Positions 1 to 21,886 of a stretch of 23,739 bases of DNA are shown one piece after another. The first letter of the stretch is position 1. The number at the start of each line of letters is the position of its first letter. The notes under the pieces were generated by a model. That model saw only the letters and a list, made by a program, of their open reading frames with translations. It was not told the origin of the DNA and did not search any database. This stretch comes from a virus, in the IMG/VR virus record IMGVR_UViG_3300018481_000075, positions 1 through 23,739 of that record; one strand, 5' to 3'. The position numbers and the translations under genes are program-made.

Positions 1-483
1 GTCAAGGTATTCTCGTTGTTTAAATGGCGTGTTTGAATCGTTGAACCAAGTTTTCAAATTGGTATTAGTGGCTTTAACGCTTTCCAAATGATTCGCAGCC
101 ACTCGTTTCATGATCTTGTCGTGATTCTTCGACCCAGCAGCCGCGTTAGCTCTGGCCGCCAAGGCTCTTGAGCGAAGCTCAGGAGAAACTGGAGTAGAAC
201 CATGCCGATTCATGAATCCTTTAGCAGCAATCTTTCCCGCTTTGGTTTTTTTTTGAAAAACAGGAACGTTCTTGAGTGCACTAACCTTTTGGTTTCTGAT
301 TGCATAGATGCTGCCTGCAGCTACTGCGGCGCCAAGACCTATTCCTACGACGACAGCGACACGTTTCCTACGCTGAACAACCGAGTCGCGCTCCGGATCA
401 CCAGAAGTTTTCTTCTTTCGAACGCCCCACTTCTGGCCTTTTACTCCGTGGTGTTCAAGATAAACGGCCTCATCGATAATCAT
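1..483 (-). CDS. Tagged phage protein with N-terminal HHGVKGQKWGVRK motif (3' end outside window)
   Basis: The reading frame is open from the ATG at 483 to the left edge, giving 161 residues without a stop; the C-terminus is missing. The start has a strong SD (AAAGGAGGTG) and lies 13 bp after the preceding gene. Residues 9-23 carry the motif HHGVKGQKWGVRKKK, and residues about 42-61 form one hydrophobic helix, followed by a basic region rich in Ala, Lys and Arg. Motifs of this HYGxKGxKWGxR type recur in phage proteins near head genes; their function is not established as far as I know. The next gene upstream carries the same tag. I infer a structural or virion-internal protein, but the role is unknown. 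Confidence 0.75.
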   Translation of the reverse strand, partial: MIIDEAVYLEHHGVKGQKWGVRKKKTSGDPERDSVVQRRKRVAVVVGIGLGAAVAAGSIYAIRNQKVSALKNVPVFQKKTKAGKIAAKGFMNRHGSTPVSPELRSRALAARANAAAGSKNHDKIMKRVAANHLESVKATNTNLKTWFNDSNTPFKQREYLD

Positions 484-496
484 TGAACACCTCCTT

Positions 497-841
497 TTAG
501 TTTCCTCCGAACTTTGCCTTTAGGGCTCGTGCAACCGCAAAAGAGACAGTAGTACCAACCACCGTTCCTGATGCAGCTTTTCCGGAGTTCTTAAGGATCT
601 CTGAAGCGTACTTCTTACCTTCAGATTTCTGAGGAGCATTCAGATCTGTGTATCGCTTCTCAAGCTCCATTCGCTTGATTCGAGCCTTCAAGACTTCGTC
701 ATCAAGACGACGAGCTTCCTTTTGATACTTAGGCCCCTTGGCGAATTTGGCTTTACGAGCAGCCTCATTTCGATGCTTTCGGACTCCCCACTTCTGACCC
801 TTAACTCCGTAATGCTTTAGAAAAGCTTCGACATCAATCAT
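497..841 (-). CDS. Small tagged phage protein with N-terminal HYGVKGQKWGVRK motif
   Basis: The protein has 114 residues. The start at 841 is chosen because its ATG overlaps the stop of the connector gene (ATGA) and a GAGGAGG SD sits about 10 bases upstream; a longer form starting at 880 would run into the neighbour without an SD. Residues 9-22 are the tag HYGVKGQKWGVRK. Residues about 25-65 are very basic and probably helical, and residues 90-106 are hydrophobic (Ala, Val, Thr-rich) with a Gly-Gly-Asn end. Tag, basic helix and hydrophobic tail resemble the layout of the neighbouring gene at 1-483, which may be a paralogue. Function unknown; a head-associated or DNA-ejection role is inference. 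Confidence 0.8.
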   Translation of the reverse strand: MIDVEAFLKHYGVKGQKWGVRKHRNEAARKAKFAKGPKYQKEARRLDDEVLKARIKRMELEKRYTDLNAPQKSEGKKYASEILKNSGKAASGTVVGTTVSFAVARALKAKFGGN

Positions 842-1185
842 GCAGGTTGATCCTCCTCTCTGAAGTTGGTGAGCCGCCATTCATGCTCAGTGATCTGTCT
901 ATCCATTGCATCAACAGCATAAGAAGTAGTAGGAGGATCAAACAGCACACGAACCTTCAAATAAATGTAGGTCTTAATCATGTTTAGCTGCTTATGAGGA
1001 AGATCAAGACCAGACCACTTGTATGCTTCATCTTCAATTTGAAATCCGGCCTTAGTGCCAATTCCAAGCTGTTCCAGGTTCGTGAACGCTGAGTTGATGA
1101 ACGTGATCACGTCTTGGTCGAAAGGCGTATAGTTTTCGCCAAGACCGAGAACCTTTTTAGTGCTGATTAGAATGCTATCTTCCAT
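838..1185 (-). CDS. Head-tail connector protein, gp6-like
   Basis: This 115-residue protein matches the pattern of gp6-like head-tail connectors of siphophages: an N-terminal helix (SILISTKKVLGLGENYTPFD), then DVITFINSAFTNLEQLGIG, and a central KTYIYLKVRVLFDPPTT segment followed by a C-terminal helix with HEWRL. Such proteins form a ring beneath the portal that joins capsid and tail. The size is usual for the family. The start at 1185 has an excellent SD (AAGGAGGTTATATT before ATG). It overlaps the tagged gene at 497-841 by four bases (ATGA). Recognition is from remembered family patterns, not from a search. Confidence 0.8.
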   Translation of the reverse strand: MEDSILISTKKVLGLGENYTPFDQDVITFINSAFTNLEQLGIGTKAGFQIEDEAYKWSGLDLPHKQLNMIKTYIYLKVRVLFDPPTTSYAVDAMDRQITEHEWRLTNFREEDQPA

Positions 1186-7653: not shown

Positions 7654-7979
7654 GCTGTCACCGGATCCTTGATTAGAACCTCAAGAGGCTCATCAAACAA
7701 CTGAATTGGCTCTCCGCCTGTGATGCGCTTAACGTCCATGTAACCTCTAGACGCCTCAAGCTCTGAGTCAGCATCGTCAATCGTAAGAATAAGTTCTCCA
7801 TCGATTCCATCAGTCTCAAAAGAAACTTCAAAAGTCGCGATCAAGTCAGATTCACGATTGTCTTCCTTACGAATTTCGCTTGCAAACGTGTCGTTAGACA
7901 CATCATACCCAAGAGCAAGTTGGATGATGTTGGTCCGACCCTTGTAGATCCAGAGCTGATTGCTAGCTTGTCCAATCAT
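7650..7979 (-). CDS. Small tail/baseplate protein, BppU-N-like
   Basis: The start at 7979 is chosen over the ATG at 8060 because it overlaps the glycosyltransferase stop (ATGA) and has AAGGA upstream. The 109-residue product has the pattern of the N-terminal domain of baseplate/minor tail proteins: YKGRTNIIQLALGYDVSNDT, SEIRKEDNRESDLIATFEV, DGIDGELILTIDD, then GYMDVKRITGGEP. In related phages this domain anchors fibres to the tail tip. Here it stands alone as a separate gene directly before the TAERM-module proteins, so it may be their attachment platform. That link is inference. Confidence 0.75.
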   Translation of the reverse strand: MIGQASNQLWIYKGRTNIIQLALGYDVSNDTFASEIRKEDNRESDLIATFEVSFETDGIDGELILTIDDADSELEASRGYMDVKRITGGEPIQLFDEPLEVLIKDPVTA

Positions 7980-9025
7980 GAGTACCATCCTTCCTTGTCC
8001 AGAGTAGCGAGACGATTTAGATATGCTTTGTACAACGGAGCTATAGAATCGAGCGACCACTTTGCAATTGCGTTCGCTCGGATCTGTTCTCCATGTGACT
8101 TCCTAAGAAGTGGAGCAAGTTTACACGCAGCAATAAAGTCACTACGAGTGAAACACTTGAAACCAGAAACGCCGGTTGTCACTGTTTCAGTAAACGCACC
8201 CCAATCAACAGTAATAACTGGAACACCAGAAAGCTGAGCCTCAACCGCGACGCCGCCAAATGGCTCAATGTACCCTGTAGGACAAAGAACTGCAGTGGCC
8301 TCAGACAGAAGCTTTTTTCTCTCTTCTGGTCCAACTGGCCCTAGATGCTCAGCACCTTCAACGCGCTCATCTCCCTGTCCACAGACGATTACATTTTGTT
8401 CTTTTGCGATCTCAGCAATAACTGCCAACCCTTTTCGCGGAGTGAGTCTACCAAGATAGAGAACGTACCCTTTATCATCCCCCAAGGCAAACTGAGACGG
8501 GTCAAAAGCGTTTGGAATAACCGCGTCATAGAATCGACCATCGTTGATTCCTTGCCTTCCATAAGTATGATGCATCCAAGCGTATGACTCGAACACACGA
8601 AAATCCGCAAACGAGGCCTCGTATCCTACGCCAAGTTCAGCATGTCTGAATTCAGGCAGAAGACGCGCGACCATCTCGTGTGCGTAACCCATTGAGAGAT
8701 GAATGACGTCTCCCGGCCGTGCGATCTTTCGAATAGCATCAGCCGAGCGAACATTGAGTTCAACCCAACAAGGATCATTTACATCCCAGTGGTCAAACAC
8801 CTTCTCACGGTAATCTGTCTTGCCGAACCAACGCTCACGATCCTTATAATCGAAAATTACATTATGAGCACCACTGTGGGAGTAAACATCCGAACCATAA
8901 ACCACAGTTGGAATCCCTTGACCCTCCAACATGTTGGCAAGATGCCTGATCTTCTGAGTGAAAGCACAAGTAGACCACGTCGGATCGATGTCTGTATGCG
9001 GAAGAGTAAGAATGTGAACAGTCAT
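7976..9025 (-). CDS. GT4-family glycosyltransferase embedded in tail module
   Basis: The 349-residue protein has the GT-B layout of family GT4: an N-terminal acceptor half, then GYVLYLGRLTPRKGL (about 187-200), and the donor-binding EPFGGVAVE (Glu254 and Glu262, the Ex7E motif) followed by AQLSGVPVITVDWGAFTE. It would transfer a sugar from a nucleotide-sugar. The length is complete for the family and no signal peptide is seen, so it acts in the cytoplasm. It lies between tail genes: eight bases after one stop and ATGA-coupled to the BppU-like gene. Substrate unknown; the collagen-like or Thr-rich tail proteins made from the same operon are attractive acceptors. Confidence 0.88.
   Translation of the reverse strand: MTVHILTLPHTDIDPTWSTCAFTQKIRHLANMLEGQGIPTVVYGSDVYSHSGAHNVIFDYKDRERWFGKTDYREKVFDHWDVNDPCWVELNVRSADAIRKIARPGDVIHLSMGYAHEMVARLLPEFRHAELGVGYEASFADFRVFESYAWMHHTYGRQGINDGRFYDAVIPNAFDPSQFALGDDKGYVLYLGRLTPRKGLAVIAEIAKEQNVIVCGQGDERVEGAEHLGPVGPEERKKLLSEATAVLCPTGYIEPFGGVAVEAQLSGVPVITVDWGAFTETVTTGVSGFKCFTRSDFIAACKLAPLLRKSHGEQIRANAIAKWSLDSIAPLYKAYLNRLATLDKEGWYS

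Positions 9026-10618: not shown

Positions 10619-10622
<4 letters not shown>
9780..10622 (-). CDS. Tail protein with two similar beta-rich halves
   Basis: The 280-residue protein starts [20 protein letters not shown]. It seems to contain two related jelly-roll-like halves: [21 protein letters not shown]...[22 protein letters not shown] (about 78-126) and [21 protein letters not shown]...[15 protein letters not shown]...LEVRYARAN (about 202-268), each ending in a hydrophobic strand. It overlaps the collagen-like gene by ATGA and has only a weak SD, so translation is probably coupled. It is Ala-, Thr- and Val-rich. A structural tail or fibre-head role is inferred from position and fold pattern. 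Confidence 0.72.
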
Positions 10623-11901
<1,279 letters not shown>

Positions 11902-11902
<1 letters not shown>

Positions 11903-13491
11903 CAGGTAACTCCTCTCATGCGTAGCCATTCACAACCGACACGACCTACTCCAACTTGGTTGACGCCAAAACCAATATGAGTTGGATCACCACCAAGTGT
12001 AGTATTGATGTCCAGGTTAGAACCAACTTGAGTCCACCCAACACCGTCAAACGATGAATAGAAATCGTAAGAGGAGTCAGATTCCTTGACAATCTTGTAG
12101 AACACGTGCGGACCAGCAGGACGCTGGAAAACTGGCGAACCAGTAACAAGCGAACCAAAGTTGTCTGCGTCCGAGTAATAGGTCACGTAGAAATACGGAT
12201 CGCTGTACCTTGTAGGACTGAACGCAGCATTCTGATGACCACCAAAGATAATGTATCGCCCGTTTACTGAGTTGTGAAGCACAGCAATCGCGGCGTACGA
12301 ATCGCCAGAATCAGCAGTATTAGCAGACCACAAATGCATGAAAGCTTCGAAGGTGGTTGTCGCCGGAATGGTACGAACCACCGCATGAATGTTGGAATCA
12401 TCGCCAGGACTACCTGGATGATCAATGAACCCAGCGCCGAAAAGGTTCTTGAAGACAGATGTGTCGCCGTTTAGAATTGACCAATCTGTCGGGTAGGTAT
12501 CATCTGCAACACCAACACCGTCAAACTCCTGGTCATAACCTTCGTCTGGCCCAAATTCTTCTTCAAACCAATAACGAGAGTCAATACCAGAATACATTGA
12601 GCCTTGTTCTGGGATGGACGGACCGCCAGGCCCTCCCAGTTCACCAGGAATCCAGGCATAGACTTCGTCAGGATCAGCAGTTCCAACAGGATCTGTTTCA
12701 CCCAAATACAGTTGACCAGTGACATAGGTGCCAGGATCGTCTGGATCCTCGATGTTGACACCACCTGCTCCACCAGAACCCGAAGGGCCAGTAGCACCTA
12801 CGGCTCCGGATGGGCCCGTCGCTCCGGTAAGGCCAGTAACTCCAGTAGGTCCAGTAGGACCGGTAACGCCTGCCGCGCCAGAAGGACCAGTACTACCAGC
12901 AACACCAGTAGCACCAGTAACTCCTGTTGGGCCTGTCGCACCTACGCCTCCGGTAGTACCTGCTGGCCCGGTGGCTCCAGTTGGACCGGGAACAGTTGAA
13001 TCTGCGCCAGCAGGTCCAGTAGATCCAGCAGGCCCGGTAGCTCCAATAACACCAGTAGGTCCAGTAGGACCAGTTGCTCCGACGGCTCCTGCGGTTCCGG
13101 TTGCACCTGCAGGGCCAGAAGCTCCCGTAGCTCCGATTGCTCCATCATTACCTGCAACTCCTGTTGGTCCCGTGGGTCCTGCGATACCTGTAGGGCCAGT
13201 TGCTCCAGTGACACCAGTAGATCCGGCTGGACCAGTAGGGCCTGGAACTGTTGAGTCGGCACCTTGAGGCCCAGTAGCCCCAGTGGGTCCGGTCGCGCCT
13301 GCAACACCTGTAGGTCCTGGAACAGTAGAATCAGCTCCAGCAGGGCCAGTAGGTCCAGCAGGTCCAGTAGGACCTGGTACAACAGAAGGCGGTGCGCCAG
13401 GACCAACTGGCCCAGCGTTCACCACCGTAGTTCCGTTCAACGGATCAACCACAATCCTCTGAGTCCTAGAAAGGACTTCAATTGCTGTCAT
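11902..13491 (-). CDS. Collagen-like minor tail protein with C-terminal LamG-like domain
   Basis: The 529-residue protein begins [20 protein letters not shown], a typical opening of actinophage minor tail proteins. Residues about 27-243 are collagen-like Gly-X-Y, mostly GPT, GAT, GPA and GVT, broken three times by the same ADSTVPG insert. A linker rich in Asp and Pro follows, then a concanavalin/LamG-like domain at about 300-529 ([66 protein letters not shown]). The SD is AGGGAGGAAGT before ATG. It should form a long trimeric fibre with a sugar-binding tip. It lies first in the tail-appendage operon. Confidence 0.9.
12763..13413 (-). repeat. Collagen-like Gly-X-Y repeats (long fibre)
   Basis: Over 200 residues of Gly-X-Y with Thr in many Y positions (GPT). 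Three copies of the interruption ADSTVPG divide it into blocks and may act as kinks or trimer-register sites. On the DNA it is a nine-base-periodic, recombination-prone repeat. Confidence 0.9.
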
Positions 13492-13795: not shown

Positions 13796-14053
13796 TTACT
13801 CTTTTGAATCTTCGACTTCTCGTGTCACTCTTTTGTAATTGTCAGTTACATCATTCGAAACAATTTCTTCAATCACAATCTCAATCGCGAACTTCTGATC
13901 TTGTTCAGAAAGTTCATGACCTTGAGCCACTAGTCTGGCGAGGTAGGATGGTGTATGGTAACCTTTTGCTGCATCCCACCTAAACCATTCATCGTACTGC
14001 TCAAAAGGATTGTAAGGATTGTCTTTAGTTGTGAGCATAGATTCGATTGCCAT
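13796..14053 (-). CDS. Conserved 85-residue phage protein
   Basis: The 85-residue protein contains TTKDNPYNPFEQYDEWFRWD, then GYHTPSYLARLVAQGHELSE and an acidic helix (AIEIVIEEIVSNDV). I recognise the DNPxxPFxxxDEWxxxD...GYxTxxYLARL pattern as a small phage protein that follows the DFDGD polymerase-like gene in other phages as well, which supports a functional link, but no function is known to me. Start and upstream stop share bases (TAATG), and AAGGAGC lies upstream. It is the last gene of this transcription block; a structured, gene-free segment follows. Confidence 0.82.
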   Translation of the reverse strand: MAIESMLTTKDNPYNPFEQYDEWFRWDAAKGYHTPSYLARLVAQGHELSEQDQKFAIEIVIEEIVSNDVTDNYKRVTREVEDSKE

Positions 14054-16758
14054 TACTCGTATGCTCCTTCACTATTCAATGATGAATCCAACGTACTGAT
14101 AGAGACACCGAGGGCAGCCGCAACTTCTGATCTTGTTGCACCACTAGCAAGCATAGCTCTAGCACGCAATGTCTTAGACCCGGACATCTTCAAAGAAGAG
14201 CGGGGGGTGGCAAGCTCACGAACTCTATCAATGTCAGCATTCTTTAGGATCTTCTCCAGTTTACTGTTACTGATAGCTCCAGCTTGAATGGCATTCCACT
14301 CATTGTCTTCAATGATGATGATGTCTTTCTTGGCACCGGTTCTGATGCGGGCTTCTTCAAGGGCCTGGAATCTAATCTTCTTGAGGGTGTCTCCTTCAAG
14401 ATTAGGATTAGTATCTCGCTTAGCTCTGATCGTTGCATTACCAATGATCTGTGCCTGCCTCTCTCGAGGGGCATTGCGCTCGGCGAGTGCCAACTTAGAA
14501 TTGAGGGAGGCTACTTCTGAAGAATAAATTTTCTTAGCAGAAGGCGAATACTTTAGAGGGGGGGTCTTTAAAGATTCAAGCCTAGCCTTGTTGGCCATTG
14601 ACTTCAGGTTATTGGAGTAGCTAGCATAGTGTCTCTCTATGGGAGTGTTAGCATCAGACACCAAGGTTCGTGCATCGTTGGTTTCCCTTAGCTTCTCAGA
14701 CTTCTCCTGCCTAGGGGTACCCTTCTGATTCAGCCTGTTGGTAGGTACAAAGACCTTCTCACCAGTAAGCCTATCAACAGGGCCGCCTTGAGATTGGGGG
14801 CGGGGCTTTCTTTGATCAACACGTTTCTCAGATGTAGCTCTAGAGATTAGTGTAGATGCACCACGCCTTGACCCACCTTGATACTGCTCTTTAAGTTTAG
14901 CAATACCATTGTCGATGTACGATTGCTTGTAGTTAAGCTCATGCTTCTCAGCATCAATGACTACCATTGAATGCCTAACTGCCTTAGCAATCTCATCATG
15001 AGACGCACCACGAATAGTCATGTCAGTAATCAAGTTGGACACGTTGCCCATCTCATGCTGCTTAGTAGCACCACTCATTACTGGCATACCATCATACTTA
15101 GGGTACGCTCTTTGTGGATCGAAGTCCTTCAATTTTTCTAGGGCGGGGGTAATTTTTACCTTACCACTATTGTTAGGAATTACAACAACAGTATCACCAT
15201 CGAAGTCTGCGCCAGAGAGACGCTCTGCTACAGACTTATGAATGCCGATGGCATCAGGTGCATCACCCAACAAACGCTTAGCTTCCCTGTTCCTGTTGTT
15301 AACAGTGAGCTCAGGGATCTCGAATGTACCACCATGTGGATACCTAACGAGAACCAGTCGTTCGCCATCCTTGTAGTTAGGCGCATAGACTTGAGTCGGC
15401 GGCATTGAATCTACTGGAAGAATCACATGCCATGCTTGACGACGCGACAAAGCAGCAGCCTCGAGGTGTACTGCTGCTGAATCTGTATCTTCAGCAAAGT
15501 TATCAAGCAATGATTTCTTAACAGTAGGGTTAGTAAGGGCCATGATTTCAGCGAGATCTTTTTCTCGCCTGCCCTGAGCCTTATCAAGTTGTGCCTTAGC
15601 CAGAGAAGGACTCTGCTTAGACAGGAACTGAGTTGACAAGTTCTTAGACCAATCAGTCCAGTCACCTTGCTCGTTGACAATATTCATGGCCGACTTGGCG
15701 CGTTCATTAGGCGTGCCTTGATCAGCGAGAATTTGCCTACGAATTACGGCACCAAAAGGAAGTGAAGGATCATTGTCACTGATCTTCTTCATAGCATCCA
15801 GTTTGTTACCAGTTGAATCCTTGTTGGTGTTGAACACCAGGTCTACGCCAGGAGGGAGATCATCCTTGTACATTGCCATGCCTTTGAGGTAATGATTCTC
15901 ACCGACCTGAACTCGAACCTGTGCATACCTAGCACCACCAAGAGAGATGTCATCTTTTCCTTCTCTTACAAAGATAACACCATCTGCATCTTTACCACCT
16001 TCATTAGCATACCGAACAGAAACTCTTTTTGGATCTACAGCAAGAGCATCGTGAATCTTGTTAAAGCTTCTGCCACCATCCTCAGAGAATTCGGTAACTG
16101 ACTGGATTTGAGATTGATTCCTTTTCACATCACCCCAAGTCGTTTTAGGGGGGGCCAAAACTTTGACTTGTGTATCCTTTCCTGTACCAATTTGCGGAAC
16201 GGGAATAGAATGCACGACGTAGCCTTGTTCTTTTAGAATAGCTACAGCAGCACCAAGTTTGGTCTGGCTGATTCCAAGGTAGTTCTCAACACCAACACCA
16301 ACATCGACGAATTGCTTCTCATCGACTTGACGTTTGAGCATGTCTGCGGTTCCTGTAAGAATCGCGTTCTTCTCTTGTGCATCATCCTTGATAAGAGATC
16401 GAAACGTTGATTCAGGAATACCCATTTGTGTGGCAGCCGCGACATTAGACATTCCTTTGTCCTTAAGACGAAGGGCTGTCGCGATTTGTTCTGCCTTCTG
16501 TTCATTCCTTGCAATAGTACGTGCAGCTCGGAGTTGTGTAGTTGAAGGACGGAAGTTTCCTTCTCTGTCAATACTTCCGATTCCGAAAGCAGTACAAATT
16601 TCAGGATCAGTCATTCCTTGCTTGCGAAGATCATCAGTAATTTGCAGAAAGGAACGGTTGATTGTGTTCTGGTTTCCTCCACTACCCCATGGATAACGGC
16701 CAGAACGTCGGAGGATCCCATAATGTGATAGATAAGCTTCTTCGTCCATTACTACCAT
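14053..16758 (-). CDS. DFDGD-motif RNA-polymerase-like protein with N-terminal HYG tag
   Basis: The 901-residue protein carries SGADFDGDTVVVIPN (DFDGD at residues 518-522), the metal-binding signature of the double-psi-barrel of cellular, YonO-like and crAss-phage RNA polymerases. VLVRYPHGGTFEIPELTVNN (469-488) lies before it, as the barrel strands should. Residues 9-27 (YLSHYGILRRSGRYPWGSG) are a variant of the tag at the left edge. Helix-turn-helix-like segments are seen at about 44-70, 100-123 and 871-890. SD AAAGGAGG lies four bases before ATG. The conserved HSMVVIDAEKHELNYKQS (596-613) supports one phage family. Polymerase activity is inferred; DNA-binding scaffold function is an alternative. 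Only one DFDGD is present. Confidence 0.8.
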   Translation of the reverse strand: MVVMDEEAYLSHYGILRRSGRYPWGSGGNQNTINRSFLQITDDLRKQGMTDPEICTAFGIGSIDREGNFRPSTTQLRAARTIARNEQKAEQIATALRLKDKGMSNVAAATQMGIPESTFRSLIKDDAQEKNAILTGTADMLKRQVDEKQFVDVGVGVENYLGISQTKLGAAVAILKEQGYVVHSIPVPQIGTGKDTQVKVLAPPKTTWGDVKRNQSQIQSVTEFSEDGGRSFNKIHDALAVDPKRVSVRYANEGGKDADGVIFVREGKDDISLGGARYAQVRVQVGENHYLKGMAMYKDDLPPGVDLVFNTNKDSTGNKLDAMKKISDNDPSLPFGAVIRRQILADQGTPNERAKSAMNIVNEQGDWTDWSKNLSTQFLSKQSPSLAKAQLDKAQGRREKDLAEIMALTNPTVKKSLLDNFAEDTDSAAVHLEAAALSRRQAWHVILPVDSMPPTQVYAPNYKDGERLVLVRYPHGGTFEIPELTVNNRNREAKRLLGDAPDAIGIHKSVAERLSGADFDGDTVVVIPNNSGKVKITPALEKLKDFDPQRAYPKYDGMPVMSGATKQHEMGNVSNLITDMTIRGASHDEIAKAVRHSMVVIDAEKHELNYKQSYIDNGIAKLKEQYQGGSRRGASTLISRATSEKRVDQRKPRPQSQGGPVDRLTGEKVFVPTNRLNQKGTPRQEKSEKLRETNDARTLVSDANTPIERHYASYSNNLKSMANKARLESLKTPPLKYSPSAKKIYSSEVASLNSKLALAERNAPRERQAQIIGNATIRAKRDTNPNLEGDTLKKIRFQALEEARIRTGAKKDIIIIEDNEWNAIQAGAISNSKLEKILKNADIDRVRELATPRSSLKMSGSKTLRARAMLASGATRSEVAAALGVSISTLDSSLNSEGAYE

Positions 16759-17312
16759 CGGGCCTCCTTTATGTTTTCGATTTGCTGGTCAAAATCAACA
16801 ATCTTATCCATAATCTCCAGGATGGCTTCAGGCTCTGGAACATGAACTCTTGTCTCATCTCTTTGGTAAATACGAAGCTCAATGTTAATATCAAATGGAG
16901 ATACACCGTATTCCAAACAGAACAAACCAGCGTACACTTCGAGTTGTTTAAATGAAGTAGCTGAAATACCTGTCTTAAGGTCATGAATCCTAAGCCAGTT
17001 ACGCCGGAAAGAAATTGTATCACATGTACCAAAGCAATTATCCGAATAGAACAGCATTTGCTCACAAGACATCTTATAGCCAATACCATCAGCTACATAA
17101 GAGGCTAGCGCTTTGTGAGCTCTTGCGAGTTTAACTCCAAGCCTAATGGATTCGTGAGCATGAGCATGTAGATCCTGACCTCGACGTGCAGACATAACAG
17201 TATCAAAGCGAGCGGCTAGTTTCTGATCATCATAATTCAGCCAATGATAATAGCTCGGACTAAGAAACGCATGTCGAGAGTGCAGGTCTTTGGGATGCCT
17301 ATTGAATATCAT
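16752..17312 (-). CDS. PD-(D/E)xK nuclease, Cas4/RecB-like
   Basis: The 186-residue protein has the core of the PD-(D/E)xK superfamily: FGTCDTISF (Asp98), RIHDLKTG (Asp111, Lys113) and FKQLEVYAGLFCLEYG (Gln123), as in RecB/Cas4-type nucleases; His residues near 49-53 (LHAHAHES) may be the N-terminal metal ligand. The opening MIFNRHPKDLHSRHAFLSPS and the ending IMDKIVDFDQQIENIK fit a phage family I recognise. The four Cys of a Cas4 iron-sulfur cluster are not evident. It overlaps the zinc-knuckle gene by ATGA and the polymerase-like gene by 7 bp. Role in DNA end processing or recombination is likely. Confidence 0.85.
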   Translation of the reverse strand: MIFNRHPKDLHSRHAFLSPSYYHWLNYDDQKLAARFDTVMSARRGQDLHAHAHESIRLGVKLARAHKALASYVADGIGYKMSCEQMLFYSDNCFGTCDTISFRRNWLRIHDLKTGISATSFKQLEVYAGLFCLEYGVSPFDINIELRIYQRDETRVHVPEPEAILEIMDKIVDFDQQIENIKEARW

Positions 17313-17521: not shown

Positions 17522-17837
17522 CGTATTCTAGTGCAAGTTGTGTCGGAGAACGGAAGAAGGTTTGAAGCTGATACAATACCTCTTCTTCATTTTCCGGATA
17601 GATAAACGAAGCAAACGACATTTGGTTGAACAGGTTCACCATATGAATTTGATTAGGTTGAACTGAGTCTTCCTTAGACCGTTTCACTTCAAGCATGGCC
17701 CATGATGAACCAAACAAAATGAGAAGATCAGGAATCCCTTGATGGCGCGATGGATCATTCTTTGCAATAAAGCAATCAGGGAAAATAGTCTGGATCTTCT
17801 TGATTAGTTTCGCTTGGTAGGCATTTTCCAATTTCAT
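17511..17837 (-). CDS. VRR-NUC nuclease
   Basis: The 108-residue protein matches the VRR-NUC branch of PD-(D/E)xK nucleases: RHQGIPDLLI (Asp37), AMLEVKRS (Glu50, Lys52) and VQPNQIHMVNLFN (Gln60, Gln63). Stand-alone phage VRR-NUC enzymes act on branched DNA such as Holliday junctions. Length is normal. The start at 17837 has GGAGG four bases upstream. It overlaps the zinc-knuckle gene downstream, which could be a cofactor. Upstream, 17838-17918 (81 bp) holds no gene that I can support. Confidence 0.85.
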   Translation of the reverse strand: MKLENAYQAKLIKKIQTIFPDCFIAKNDPSRHQGIPDLLILFGSSWAMLEVKRSKEDSVQPNQIHMVNLFNQMSFASFIYPENEEEVLYQLQTFFRSPTQLALEYDGC

Positions 17838-17918
17838 TCTGCCTCCAAAAAGAAATATGGGATGAATAGTCTGCTGTAGAGACTTTCTCCTATAGTAAGC
17901 GATGTTTTGCGAGCGAGC

Positions 17919-19066: not shown

Positions 19067-20254
19067 TCAGAAGGGCTCCGATTCCAACATTTCTTCCATG
19101 AACTTACGCTCATTGAATGCCCGTTTTGCACTAATTGCTCCACGGATGGCTCGATCGGGAATAGAATTTGACACAAAAATGTAGTAGTACAGCGACTGGT
19201 ACAAAGTGTCCAAACGGTCTATTCTACCCTGCACTTGTTCGAAGTTCTTATAGCTATATGTCAGGCTATAAAGAACCATAGCATCAGTAGCCGTGCAGTT
19301 CCAGGCTTCAGCTCCTGCCACATACTGCACGAGATAAACCCATCGTTCTTCATGCTCAAATTGGGAATTATGTACCTTTCTATGTCCATTCCACTCGTAA
19401 CAAGGAATATCATCATTTAGAGTCCTTAGTATGTCGAGCTCGTAGTTCCAGTTGTAGTAGATGATGAGCTTGGGGTGTGCTTTCATCAGGTATTTGATGA
19501 GCTTCAGCCTACTCGGATCAGAGTTCACGATCCTGCGCATGACTCTGAAGAGCTCAGCCGCGTCCTTAATCGGCCGGTCTTCGTATACATGCCAGCGATC
19601 CTTGTAGGCCCGAAGCATCAGTTCCTCATCGTACTGAACGTCCATCCAGTTGAGAAAGCGTGTGGTGTGCTTCTCATATGGCATCTCTACCAGGATGTCG
19701 TTACGCAACACCTCTAGCTTTTGCTCACCTAGATAACCGCGAATCTTCGGATACCGAACGTACGGTTCGTACAGAACGTGCTTAAGCTTGAACTCCGTTG
19801 TGTTCTTGAAGAAGCCGTTCGCGACGAACACTGGCGCATAGTCCATCCAGGTATCCCCTGGCGTAGCACTCAGCATAACCCATCTGTTCTTCTTCGCTAT
19901 CTTCTTGAAGCTCTTTACCCATGCTCCTGATCCGACCAATCGCTGCTCGTCGAAGATGAAAAACATGTCCTGGCAGTCTTCATAATGTCCGATGTTGTTC
20001 CAAGAATCGACTTCAATGATTCCAGCAACTGTTGCAAATTCCTCAGTGCCAATTCCAAACTTTGCAGCTTCACGTTCCCAATCAAGCGAGTCTCTTTTCT
20101 TTGCTGTAGTGATTACCTTGATGTGAGCGGGGGCTTCTTTCTTCATGTAGTACCCGAGCACCGCTGCGCTTTTGCCAGACCCTACGCCTCCATAAAGGAT
20201 CTTGCCAGTATCCAATCGGTCGATTACTTCGAGCTGGTGCTCCATCAATTCCAT
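19067..20254 (-). CDS. SF2 helicase (DEAD/SNF2-like)
   Basis: The 395-residue protein has the motifs of a superfamily 2 helicase: Walker A GGVGSGKS (22-29), motif II DEQR (102-105, instead of DEAH or DEAD), motif III SATP (129-132) and motif VI QGRIDR (342-347) with the arginine finger. It should use ATP to move on or unwind DNA in phage replication or recombination. Length is near the minimum for the fold and no accessory domain is apparent. The start at 20254 has AGGAGGTGAGTT directly before. It heads the DNA-processing block. The DEQR variant is a recognisable feature of phage SF2 helicases, not a sign of damage. Confidence 0.9.
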   Translation of the reverse strand: MELMEHQLEVIDRLDTGKILYGGVGSGKSAAVLGYYMKKEAPAHIKVITTAKKRDSLDWEREAAKFGIGTEEFATVAGIIEVDSWNNIGHYEDCQDMFFIFDEQRLVGSGAWVKSFKKIAKKNRWVMLSATPGDTWMDYAPVFVANGFFKNTTEFKLKHVLYEPYVRYPKIRGYLGEQKLEVLRNDILVEMPYEKHTTRFLNWMDVQYDEELMLRAYKDRWHVYEDRPIKDAAELFRVMRRIVNSDPSRLKLIKYLMKAHPKLIIYYNWNYELDILRTLNDDIPCYEWNGHRKVHNSQFEHEERWVYLVQYVAGAEAWNCTATDAMVLYSLTYSYKNFEQVQGRIDRLDTLYQSLYYYIFVSNSIPDRAIRGAISAKRAFNERKFMEEMLESEPF

Positions 20255-21279: not shown

Positions 21280-21492
21280 CTACTCCGTCACCACGGCTTC
21301 CATGATGATGTCCGAGTTCTTCTTGAGCTTCCGAGCTTCGATCCGGTCCTTCACCGCGAACGTCACGCGTCCCACGCCCTTCCCGACGAAGTAGCTGCAT
21401 GTGGCAACTCCAACGGCGGTCAGTGCGAGGACGGCGACGCCGACTGGCGAAAGCACGGTCTCTTCCTCGGAGGTCTCGATGATTTCGGTCAT
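21280..21492 (-). CDS. One-helix membrane protein (70 residues)
   Basis: The product begins MTEIIETSEEETVLSPVGVA, has an acidic N-terminus, a transmembrane helix at about residues 17-36 and a basic stretch (DRIEARKLKK) after it. The SD AAGGAGACCGAA precedes the ATG at 21492. A TATAAT promoter and dyad lie upstream and a terminator follows, so it forms a single-gene unit. Function unknown. Confidence 0.75.
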   Translation of the reverse strand: MTEIIETSEEETVLSPVGVAVLALTAVGVATCSYFVGKGVGRVTFAVKDRIEARKLKKNSDIIMEAVVTE

Positions 21493-21511: not shown

Positions 21512-21540
21512 GGGTGTATCTCCTATTATACACCCTGTAT
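21512..21540 (-). promoter_or_regulatory. Promoter with TATAAT inside inverted repeats
   Basis: TATAAT (21525-21530, minus strand) lies inside GGGTGTAT-N8-ATACACCC (8-bp perfect dyad, 21512-21535) and next to ATACA-GGG-TGTAT (21528-21540). The -35 position falls on TTTTTC at the end of the upstream terminator and is poor. This suggests a repressible or activator-dependent promoter for the gene at 21280-21492. Confidence 0.6.
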
Positions 21541-21548
21541 TTCTTGCG

Positions 21549-21576
21549 AAAAACCTAAGCCTTGTAGGGCCTAGGT
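21549..21576 (-). terminator. Intrinsic terminator after the 68-residue gene
   Basis: ACCTAGGCC pairs with GGCTTAGGT (9 bp, one G-T) around CTACAA and is followed by TTTTT on the minus strand. It starts about 8 bases after the stop codon of the upstream gene. Confidence 0.85.
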
Positions 21577-21584
21577 CTCTTGAG

Positions 21585-21791
21585 CTAGCTGTTCATCTCC
21601 ACGAAGTACTCAGGGTTGTAGTACTCGATCGGGTCGATGCCCTTCGTCTCCAGGAACTGGTCGAAGGCGCGACGGTTCGACTGCTGCAGTGCGATGGCGC
21701 CGAGGGCGACACCGGCCATTGCGTAGCCGAACTTGTTGTCCTTCACGTGGTTCTTGACGGTGACGAGGGCTGACTTGATGCGGTCCTTCAT
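21585..21791 (-). CDS. One-helix membrane protein (68 residues)
   Basis: The product begins MKDRIKSALVTVKNHVKDNK, a basic amphipathic helix, with a hydrophobic segment at about residues 22-36 (GYAMAGVALGAIALQ) and an acidic C-terminus. AAGGAGACAACGAA precedes the start. It lies between two terminators with its own promoter-like dyad upstream. No family recognised. Confidence 0.75.
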   Translation of the reverse strand: MKDRIKSALVTVKNHVKDNKFGYAMAGVALGAIALQQSNRRAFDQFLETKGIDPIEYYNPEYFVEMNS

Positions 21792-21824
21792 TTCGTTGTC
21801 TCCTTAGTGGTGTGAATAGTTCTC

Positions 21825-21841
21825 ATTACAACCCATGTAAT
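21825..21841 (-). promoter_or_regulatory. Promoter-like dyad ATTACA...TGTAAT
   Basis: ATTACA-TGGGT-TGTAAT forms a 6-bp perfect inverted repeat; TGTAAT can serve as -10 on the minus strand. Its context (T-run, CGCA, TACA, GGGT, GTA-AAT, GAGA) aligns with the promoter at 21512-21540. Likely drives the gene at 21585-21791. The -35 is weak. Confidence 0.5.
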
Positions 21842-21850
21842 TACTGCGAG

Positions 21851-21886
21851 AAAAAGGGGGAGGCCATGTAAGCCCCCACCCTTTTT
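21851..21886 (-). terminator. Strong hairpin terminator, A- and T-flanked
   Basis: AAAAAGGGTGGGGGC pairs imperfectly with GCCTCCCCCTTTTT around TTACATG on the minus strand, followed by the T-run. It begins at the stop codon of the upstream gene. A and T flanks would allow termination in both directions. Confidence 0.8.

Follow-up and report, generated by a model that had tools for sequence, protein, structure and literature searches.

The viral DNA analysed here (the window), which is itself a 23.7-kb IMG/VR record (IMGVR_UViG_3300018481_000075), encodes a 901-residue protein that, as judged from its predicted structure, is very probably a two-barrel RNA polymerase. Taking all lines of evidence together, we consider it probable that this protein is a DNA-dependent early-gene polymerase with a three-box promoter of its own, and that an N-terminal tag delivers it with the virion. 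Earlier work has established the protein family, its two-barrel character in general terms and the existence of virion polymerases. In the part of the literature covered, main texts without supplements, we found no description of the promoter, tag or packaging of this family, PHROG 4291.

The initial annotation had placed an open reading frame at 14053-16758, and the gene has exactly these ends on the minus strand, the plus strand being interrupted by stops throughout. It lies in a minus-strand gene run comprising a helicase, small genes, an exonuclease, the polymerase and an 85-residue phrog_4303 protein, followed by tail-fibre and other genes:

19067..20254, minus strand: DNA helicase of the same replication module (profile matches)
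16752..17312, minus strand: exonuclease (phrog_3953; relatives labelled Cas4/RecB-like), directly upstream of the polymerase
14053..16758, minus strand: predicted two-barrel single-chain RNA polymerase, 901 aa (PHROG 4291), with barrels within residues 232-735 of the predicted model and DFDGD at 518-522
13796..14053, minus strand: phrog_4303 protein, 85 aa (MLTTxDNPYNPF...), overlapping the polymerase stop codon

Farther along the same strand are two adjoining collagen-repeat tail-fibre-like proteins (10619-13491) and a group 1 glycosyltransferase (7976-9025), the latter between the tail-fibre-like and glycine-rich genes.

The polymerase matches the PHROG 4291 profile, named 'RNA-dependent RNA polymerase' (RdRp), over its full length (E=0, residues 4-896 against profile positions 6-907 of 909). 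Members of this family include Arthrobacter phage Mudcat gp94, the RdRp gene of Rhodococcus phage ReqiPepy6 and Lactococcus phage 1706 orf75; the window protein is 39-58% identical to its relatives among the matches listed and shows no essential difference from them. Searching with tblastn revealed homologues in 250 phage records, 249 of them covering at least 80% of the length, with Arthrobacter (95), Gordonia (55), Streptomyces (54), Lactococcus (13) and others as hosts. A further 130 polymerase loci, many in gut Firmicutes, came from scanning contigs of bacterial and archaeal genomes. The protein had been described as a conserved phage family usually left without a function; conservation is evident, but the homologues in phage records are often named, as RdRp or as helix-turn-helix (HTH) DNA-binding protein, besides those labelled hypothetical. 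The gene order exonuclease-polymerase-phrog_4303 is common to the window and to actinophages bearing PHROG 4291. Moreover, phrog_4303 occurs in 248 phage records, compared with 250 for the polymerase, with the same distribution over organisms; its product is a candidate partner of the polymerase.

The catalytic core could be traced at the level of motifs and of the predicted fold. The parts of the protein referred to below are as follows:

16678..16758, minus strand: N-terminal tag, residues 1-27, with EEAYLSHYGILRRSGRYPWGSG; nearly invariant, disordered in the model, distantly DUF7211-like
16138..16674, minus strand: N-terminal DNA-binding-like region with HTH 44-80, HTH 91-124 and a winged helix at about 126-207 (Pfam, models)
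15193..15207, minus strand: putative metal-binding motif DFDGD, residues 518-522 (sequence, conservation)
14086..14175, minus strand: C-terminal HTH, residues 862-891 (Pfam, model)

As the initial annotation had stated, DFDGD lies in a strand ending in VIPN (TVVVIPN, 523-529) and is preceded by RYPHGG (472-477). Residues D518, F519, D520, G521 and D522 are invariant among 63 sequences, which agrees with the DxDxD pattern of the two-barrel superfamily, and K292-G293 and residues of the RYPHGG region are likewise invariant among the 63 relatives. K313 is as invariant as K292, and K298 nearly so, in the alignment of the same 63 sequences; these lysines are candidates for the conserved basic residues of the second barrel. 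The AlphaFold2 model built from these sequences has a mean pLDDT of 81 and a pTM of 0.69. When it was compared with the PDB by Foldseek, all eight matches at E <= 0.001 were two-barrel polymerases, namely QDE-1, the non-virion RNA polymerases (nvRNAPs) of Thermus phages and RDR2, and E-values from 8e-9 to 7e-8 were obtained for QDE-1 (7y7t, 2j7n), P74 gp62 (8f5m) and 8f72. The entry 8f72 is titled phage P32 gp64, which we take to be the P23-45 gp64 nvRNAP. VIA-align gave Z 14.7 to maize RDR2 (7w82, 424 residues, rmsd 5.0) and Z 14.5 to QDE-1 (2j7n, 378 residues, rmsd 4.4), whereas single-barrel matches to multisubunit enzymes reached about 10.5. The alignments to QDE-1, RDR2 and 8f72 span model residues 232-735 or beyond (232-836 in the best match), and therefore cover both barrels of the predicted model. 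Thus the polymerase core postulated at DFDGD is supported by a two-barrel fold, and the comparison with QDE-1 that had been called for found the second barrel, whose absence would have spoken against a polymerase. The domain packing of the model is not trustworthy, because whole-chain TM-scores are low (about 0.3). No polymerase was retrieved from the solved structures by sequence search, either with the protein itself or with the family profile, and the fold assignment therefore depends on the model. YonO and crAss gp66 (6VR4) were absent among the matches listed, which for gp66 is no evidence of a different fold.

Both ends of the chain carry putative DNA-binding modules. Pfam reports HTH_23 at residues 91-124 (E 7e-11, above the cut-off) and HTH_7 at 862-890 (E 2.6e-4, just under the cut-off), with GATRSEVAAALGVSISTL at residues 873-890. 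HTH arrangements are present in the structure models at 51-58/from 73, 105-112/116-122 and 876-883/887-896, so that the three HTH-like segments first noticed at about 44-70, 100-123 and 871-890 are all recovered in the models, the second and third also by Pfam. Both in the full model and when residues 29-232 are modelled separately (pLDDT 89), two HTH units are followed by a winged-helix-like unit at about 126-207, an extra module absent from the initial annotation. Its structural matches are weak (PadR, TFIIE and TFIIIC, Z 7.4 at most) and show a common arrangement, not a function. By itself, the N-terminal region gave these winged-helix matches and no sigma-factor assignment.

Several known enzymes share this core. 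The nvRNAPs of P23-45 and P74-26 (8f72, 8f5m) are likewise single-chain two-barrel phage polymerases, acting at phage-specific early promoters, but their chains of about 590 residues match model residues 232-730, beyond which the window protein has about 230 extra N-terminal residues (HTH and winged helix) and the C-terminal HTH. YonO of SPbeta, likened here by description only, is also a phage RNA polymerase in a single chain, about 100 kDa in size and containing two double-psi barrels; it differs in acting on late genes, and no promoter was known for it as of 2017 (PMC5467207). QDE-1 and RDR2 are two-barrel single chains as well, but they are eukaryotic, act in RNA interference and are 11-15% identical over the core.

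A promoter-like motif was found de novo in the intergenic gaps of phages that carry the polymerase. We collected words common to the gaps of four such phages, of Rhodococcus, Streptomyces, Arthrobacter and Lactococcus, picked before any motif was known. The motif TCGCR-N5-TACA-N5-TATAATGAGA was present in ReqiPepy6, RosaAsantewaa and Mudcat, and Lactococcus phage 1706 has the variant CACA-N5-TACA-N5-TATAGTAGA. In a Faecalibacterium phage, CTTTATGG takes the place of the third box, the two upstream boxes and the spacing being unchanged. The boxes are spaced at intervals of 10 and 9 bp, about one helical turn; they would thus lie on about one face of the DNA, which would suit HTH and winged-helix units in tandem, together with a melting element. 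The motif stands about 25-40 nt ahead of early start codons, and the distance from the TATA-like box to the start is tight, with medians of 25-34 nt by phage. Where 0.00 sites were expected, the window has two, each on the coding strand:

21859-21877, minus strand: hairpin and T-run, directly upstream of the motif at 21821..21849
21821..21849, minus strand: promoter-like motif TCGCAGTAATTACATGGGTTGTAATGAGA, 1 mismatch, TATA-like box 39 nt from the ATG of the open reading frame 21791..21585
21521..21549, minus strand: promoter-like motif TCGCAAGAAATACAGGGTGTATAATAGGA, 2 mismatches, TATA-like box 38 nt from the ATG of the open reading frame 21492..21280

T-rich stretches also precede many motif sites in relatives, and the combination of T-rich stretch and motif suggests terminator-promoter units. 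Immediately ahead of the polymerase gene, the window showed no promoter-like site; in Mudcat, a site also stands ahead of the operon that contains this gene.

The motif follows the polymerase gene across genomes. In 23 of 25 polymerase-bearing records, 3-15 sites each were listed at up to three mismatches, on one strand only per record, which was the strand of the polymerase gene wherever the strand was checked. The two other records are those of Lactococcus phage 1706 and the Faecalibacterium phage, both with the variants described above. A reversed-pattern control yielded one hit overall, in one record, and four phages that lack the polymerase (three actinophages and one Lactococcus phage) had no motif site. 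Scanning IMG/VR contigs for the exact consensus returned at least 120 stretches, compared with a chance expectation on the order of one for 19 fixed bases (our own estimate for an assumed collection size). Among 50 distinct motif contigs tested, 30 encode the polymerase fully or nearly so, one a C-terminal fragment and one a weak HTH match, left uncounted. Every one of the 23 tested contigs that reach 39 kb carries the polymerase gene, and the contigs lacking it are all shorter, up to 38,952 bases. For the CTTTATGG variant the number of hits was near chance (16 fixed bases; our own estimate), yet 8 of 24 contigs encode the polymerase. Hundreds of related phages carry the same gene and, as far as sequence tells, the same putative promoter. 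Terminase genes more than 60% identical to that of RosaAsantewaa occur in 243 records. Since polymerase, phrog_4303, terminase and motif travel together in one lineage, another protein of that lineage, phrog_4303 included, could read the motif. The polymerase is the sole shared gene found that combines recognisable DNA-binding modules with a transcription-related fold, and we hold that its HTH and winged-helix modules, with good probability, read the three-box promoter. The proposal that these modules provide the protein's own DNA recognition gains indirect support from a conserved promoter-like motif that tracks the gene. The protein is likely a DNA-dependent polymerase for the phage's own early genes. 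The corresponding motif of P23-45 and P74-26 has been described as GC-rich (PMC10770324), unlike the one found here.

A further element is the N-terminal tag, whose residues 6-27 (EEAYLSHYGILRRSGRYPWGSG) show high conservation although disorder is predicted for them. Related tags are borne by two proteins at the left edge of the window, whose tag motif is Pfam DUF7211 (PF23847), a 25-residue tag:

500..880, minus strand: DUF7211-tagged protein, MIDVEAFLKHYGVKGQKWGVRK (E 8.4e-11)
1..483, minus strand: DUF7211-tagged protein, MIIDEAVYLEHHGVKGQKWGVRK (E 6.5e-7), running off the window

The polymerase misses the DUF7211 cut-off, the window protein being unreported at E<=0.5 and one homologue scoring 15.8 against 27 bits. 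With hhalign, polymerase residues 1-38 matched DUF7211-type tags at 95% probability, with a score of 31 against 13.6 for the polymerase's own best non-overlapping slice. Furthermore, in a search of 9,737 open reading frames with a tag HMM built without polymerases, the polymerases ranked straight after the true members, which counts as one observation and not eighty because the polymerases are mutually homologous. Both tags have the core LxH[YH]G[VI] in common; that of the polymerase differs by an insert and by SGRYPWGSG in place of KGMKWG. Among the loci examined, the SGRYPWGSG form was on no non-polymerase protein, two other hits being incomplete polymerase open reading frames. Judged by a strict pattern, 67 of the roughly 80 homologues on bacterial genome contigs retain the tag, and several others have a longer variant. 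Of 25 polymerase-bearing records, 23 encode DUF7211 proteins, the remaining two being short (23.5 and 29.6 kb). In RosaAsantewaa, Mudcat and ReqiPepy6, these proteins are encoded in the neighbourhood of the terminase and portal genes. ReqiPepy6 has eight of them; its gp013 (10681-12273) joins an N-terminal 2'-5' RNA ligase/2H phosphoesterase domain to a DUF7211 tag at residues 340-356 and is possibly an enzyme carried in the virion. In the record of Lactococcus phage 1706, orf7, with two DUF7211 tags, and orf75, the polymerase, are both annotated as structural protein. The genome paper of this phage reportedly included virion proteomics; our literature search on its virion proteins gave nothing usable. 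Two small early-region proteins of phage 1706, orf62 (12929-13207) and orf71 (17535-17888), are annotated as structural too, both without the tag.

These observations lead to a putative model of early transcription. The tag, as a distant relative of DUF7211, would bring the polymerase into the virion, and the enzyme would be delivered together with the DNA. Early genes could then be read before any phage protein is made. Promoter-like sites stand ahead of the early genes, whereas the polymerase gene, which these sites precede, is last in the early module. Two routes are conceivable: initial transcription by the host polymerase, or entry of the enzyme along with the virion. Virion delivery is moderately favoured by the tag and by the structural label in phage 1706, and we rate packaging in the virion slightly above an even chance. 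A virion-delivered polymerase is an established strategy in P23-45 (PMC10770324): like the enzyme proposed here, P23-45 gp96 and gp66 of the crAss-like phage phi14:2 travel in the virion and serve to transcribe the first genes, but they are fused to the tape-measure or another giant protein, whereas the window polymerase has a short N-terminal tag.

Alternatively, the same enzyme with the same promoters might be made only after infection, the host RNA polymerase transcribing its gene first and the tag having another role. Packaging would then not be needed. We give this alternative an appreciable, though minority, probability. In its favour, YonO of SPbeta transcribes late genes (PMC5467207), P23-45 gp64 is a non-virion early polymerase (PMC10770324), and the polymerase tag departs from canonical DUF7211 in having SGRYPWGSG, not KGMKWG. 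Against it stand the sites ahead of the first early genes and, in Mudcat, of the polymerase operon itself, the structural label of the 1706 homologue and the similarity of the tag to DUF7211.

It is unlikely that the motif is instead a host sigma-70-type promoter assisted by a phage activator, with the protein doing a different job. TATAAT is the host -10 consensus and might be used by host sigma factors as well, TCGCA and TACA are potential binding sites for an activator, and Mudcat has a separate gene for an HTH protein. However, no TTGACA is found at -35, and the motif is common to phages of Actinobacteria and Firmicutes. The third box varies (TATAGTAGA in phage 1706, CTTTATGG in the Faecalibacterium-phage relatives, in the latter with unchanged upstream boxes) while the spacing of the upstream boxes is constant, which speaks against an ordinary sigma-70 -10 element of the host. 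The lack of any other shared gene with recognisable DNA-binding modules among those found also speaks for the polymerase as the reader of the motif. Sigma-70-type sites in the window number 23 against 16.6 +/- 4.5, with no clear enrichment.

That the annotation is correct and the protein is an RNA-dependent RNA polymerase that copies RNA in an RNA-interference-like or regulatory role is very improbable: QDE-1 and RDR2 are its best structural matches and the PHROG label points the same way, as does a match to the eukaryotic-type RdRP (PF05183, residues 508-612, E 3e-3) that is below the Pfam gathering score (16.7 against 23.8 bits), but QDE-1 itself has been solved with DNA templates (7y7r, 7y7s, 7y7t), the HTH and winged-helix modules and the association with a DNA promoter point to double-stranded DNA, and YonO, also a two-barrel single chain, is DNA-dependent (PMC5467207). 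The RdRp label on PHROG 4291 is probably misleading.

In summary, the label under which at least 250 sequenced phages carry this polymerase gene conceals what it probably does. The predicted promoter of fixed spacing makes polymerase activity and specificity accessible to a single in vitro transcription experiment, and an orthogonal polymerase-promoter pair of small size could be derived from the system. Should the tag prove to be a loading signal, the entry of this enzyme of about 100 kDa into the particle would be accounted for, and DUF7211 would have its first role. We tentatively extend this model, at somewhat under an even chance, to the whole lineage of hundreds of genomes from phages of Actinobacteria and Firmicutes, which would have a one-chain virion polymerase with a built-in promoter reader, the short DUF7211-type address tag, borne also by other carried proteins such as the 2H-phosphoesterase-like one of ReqiPepy6, serving as a general enzyme-loading tag for siphovirus particles.
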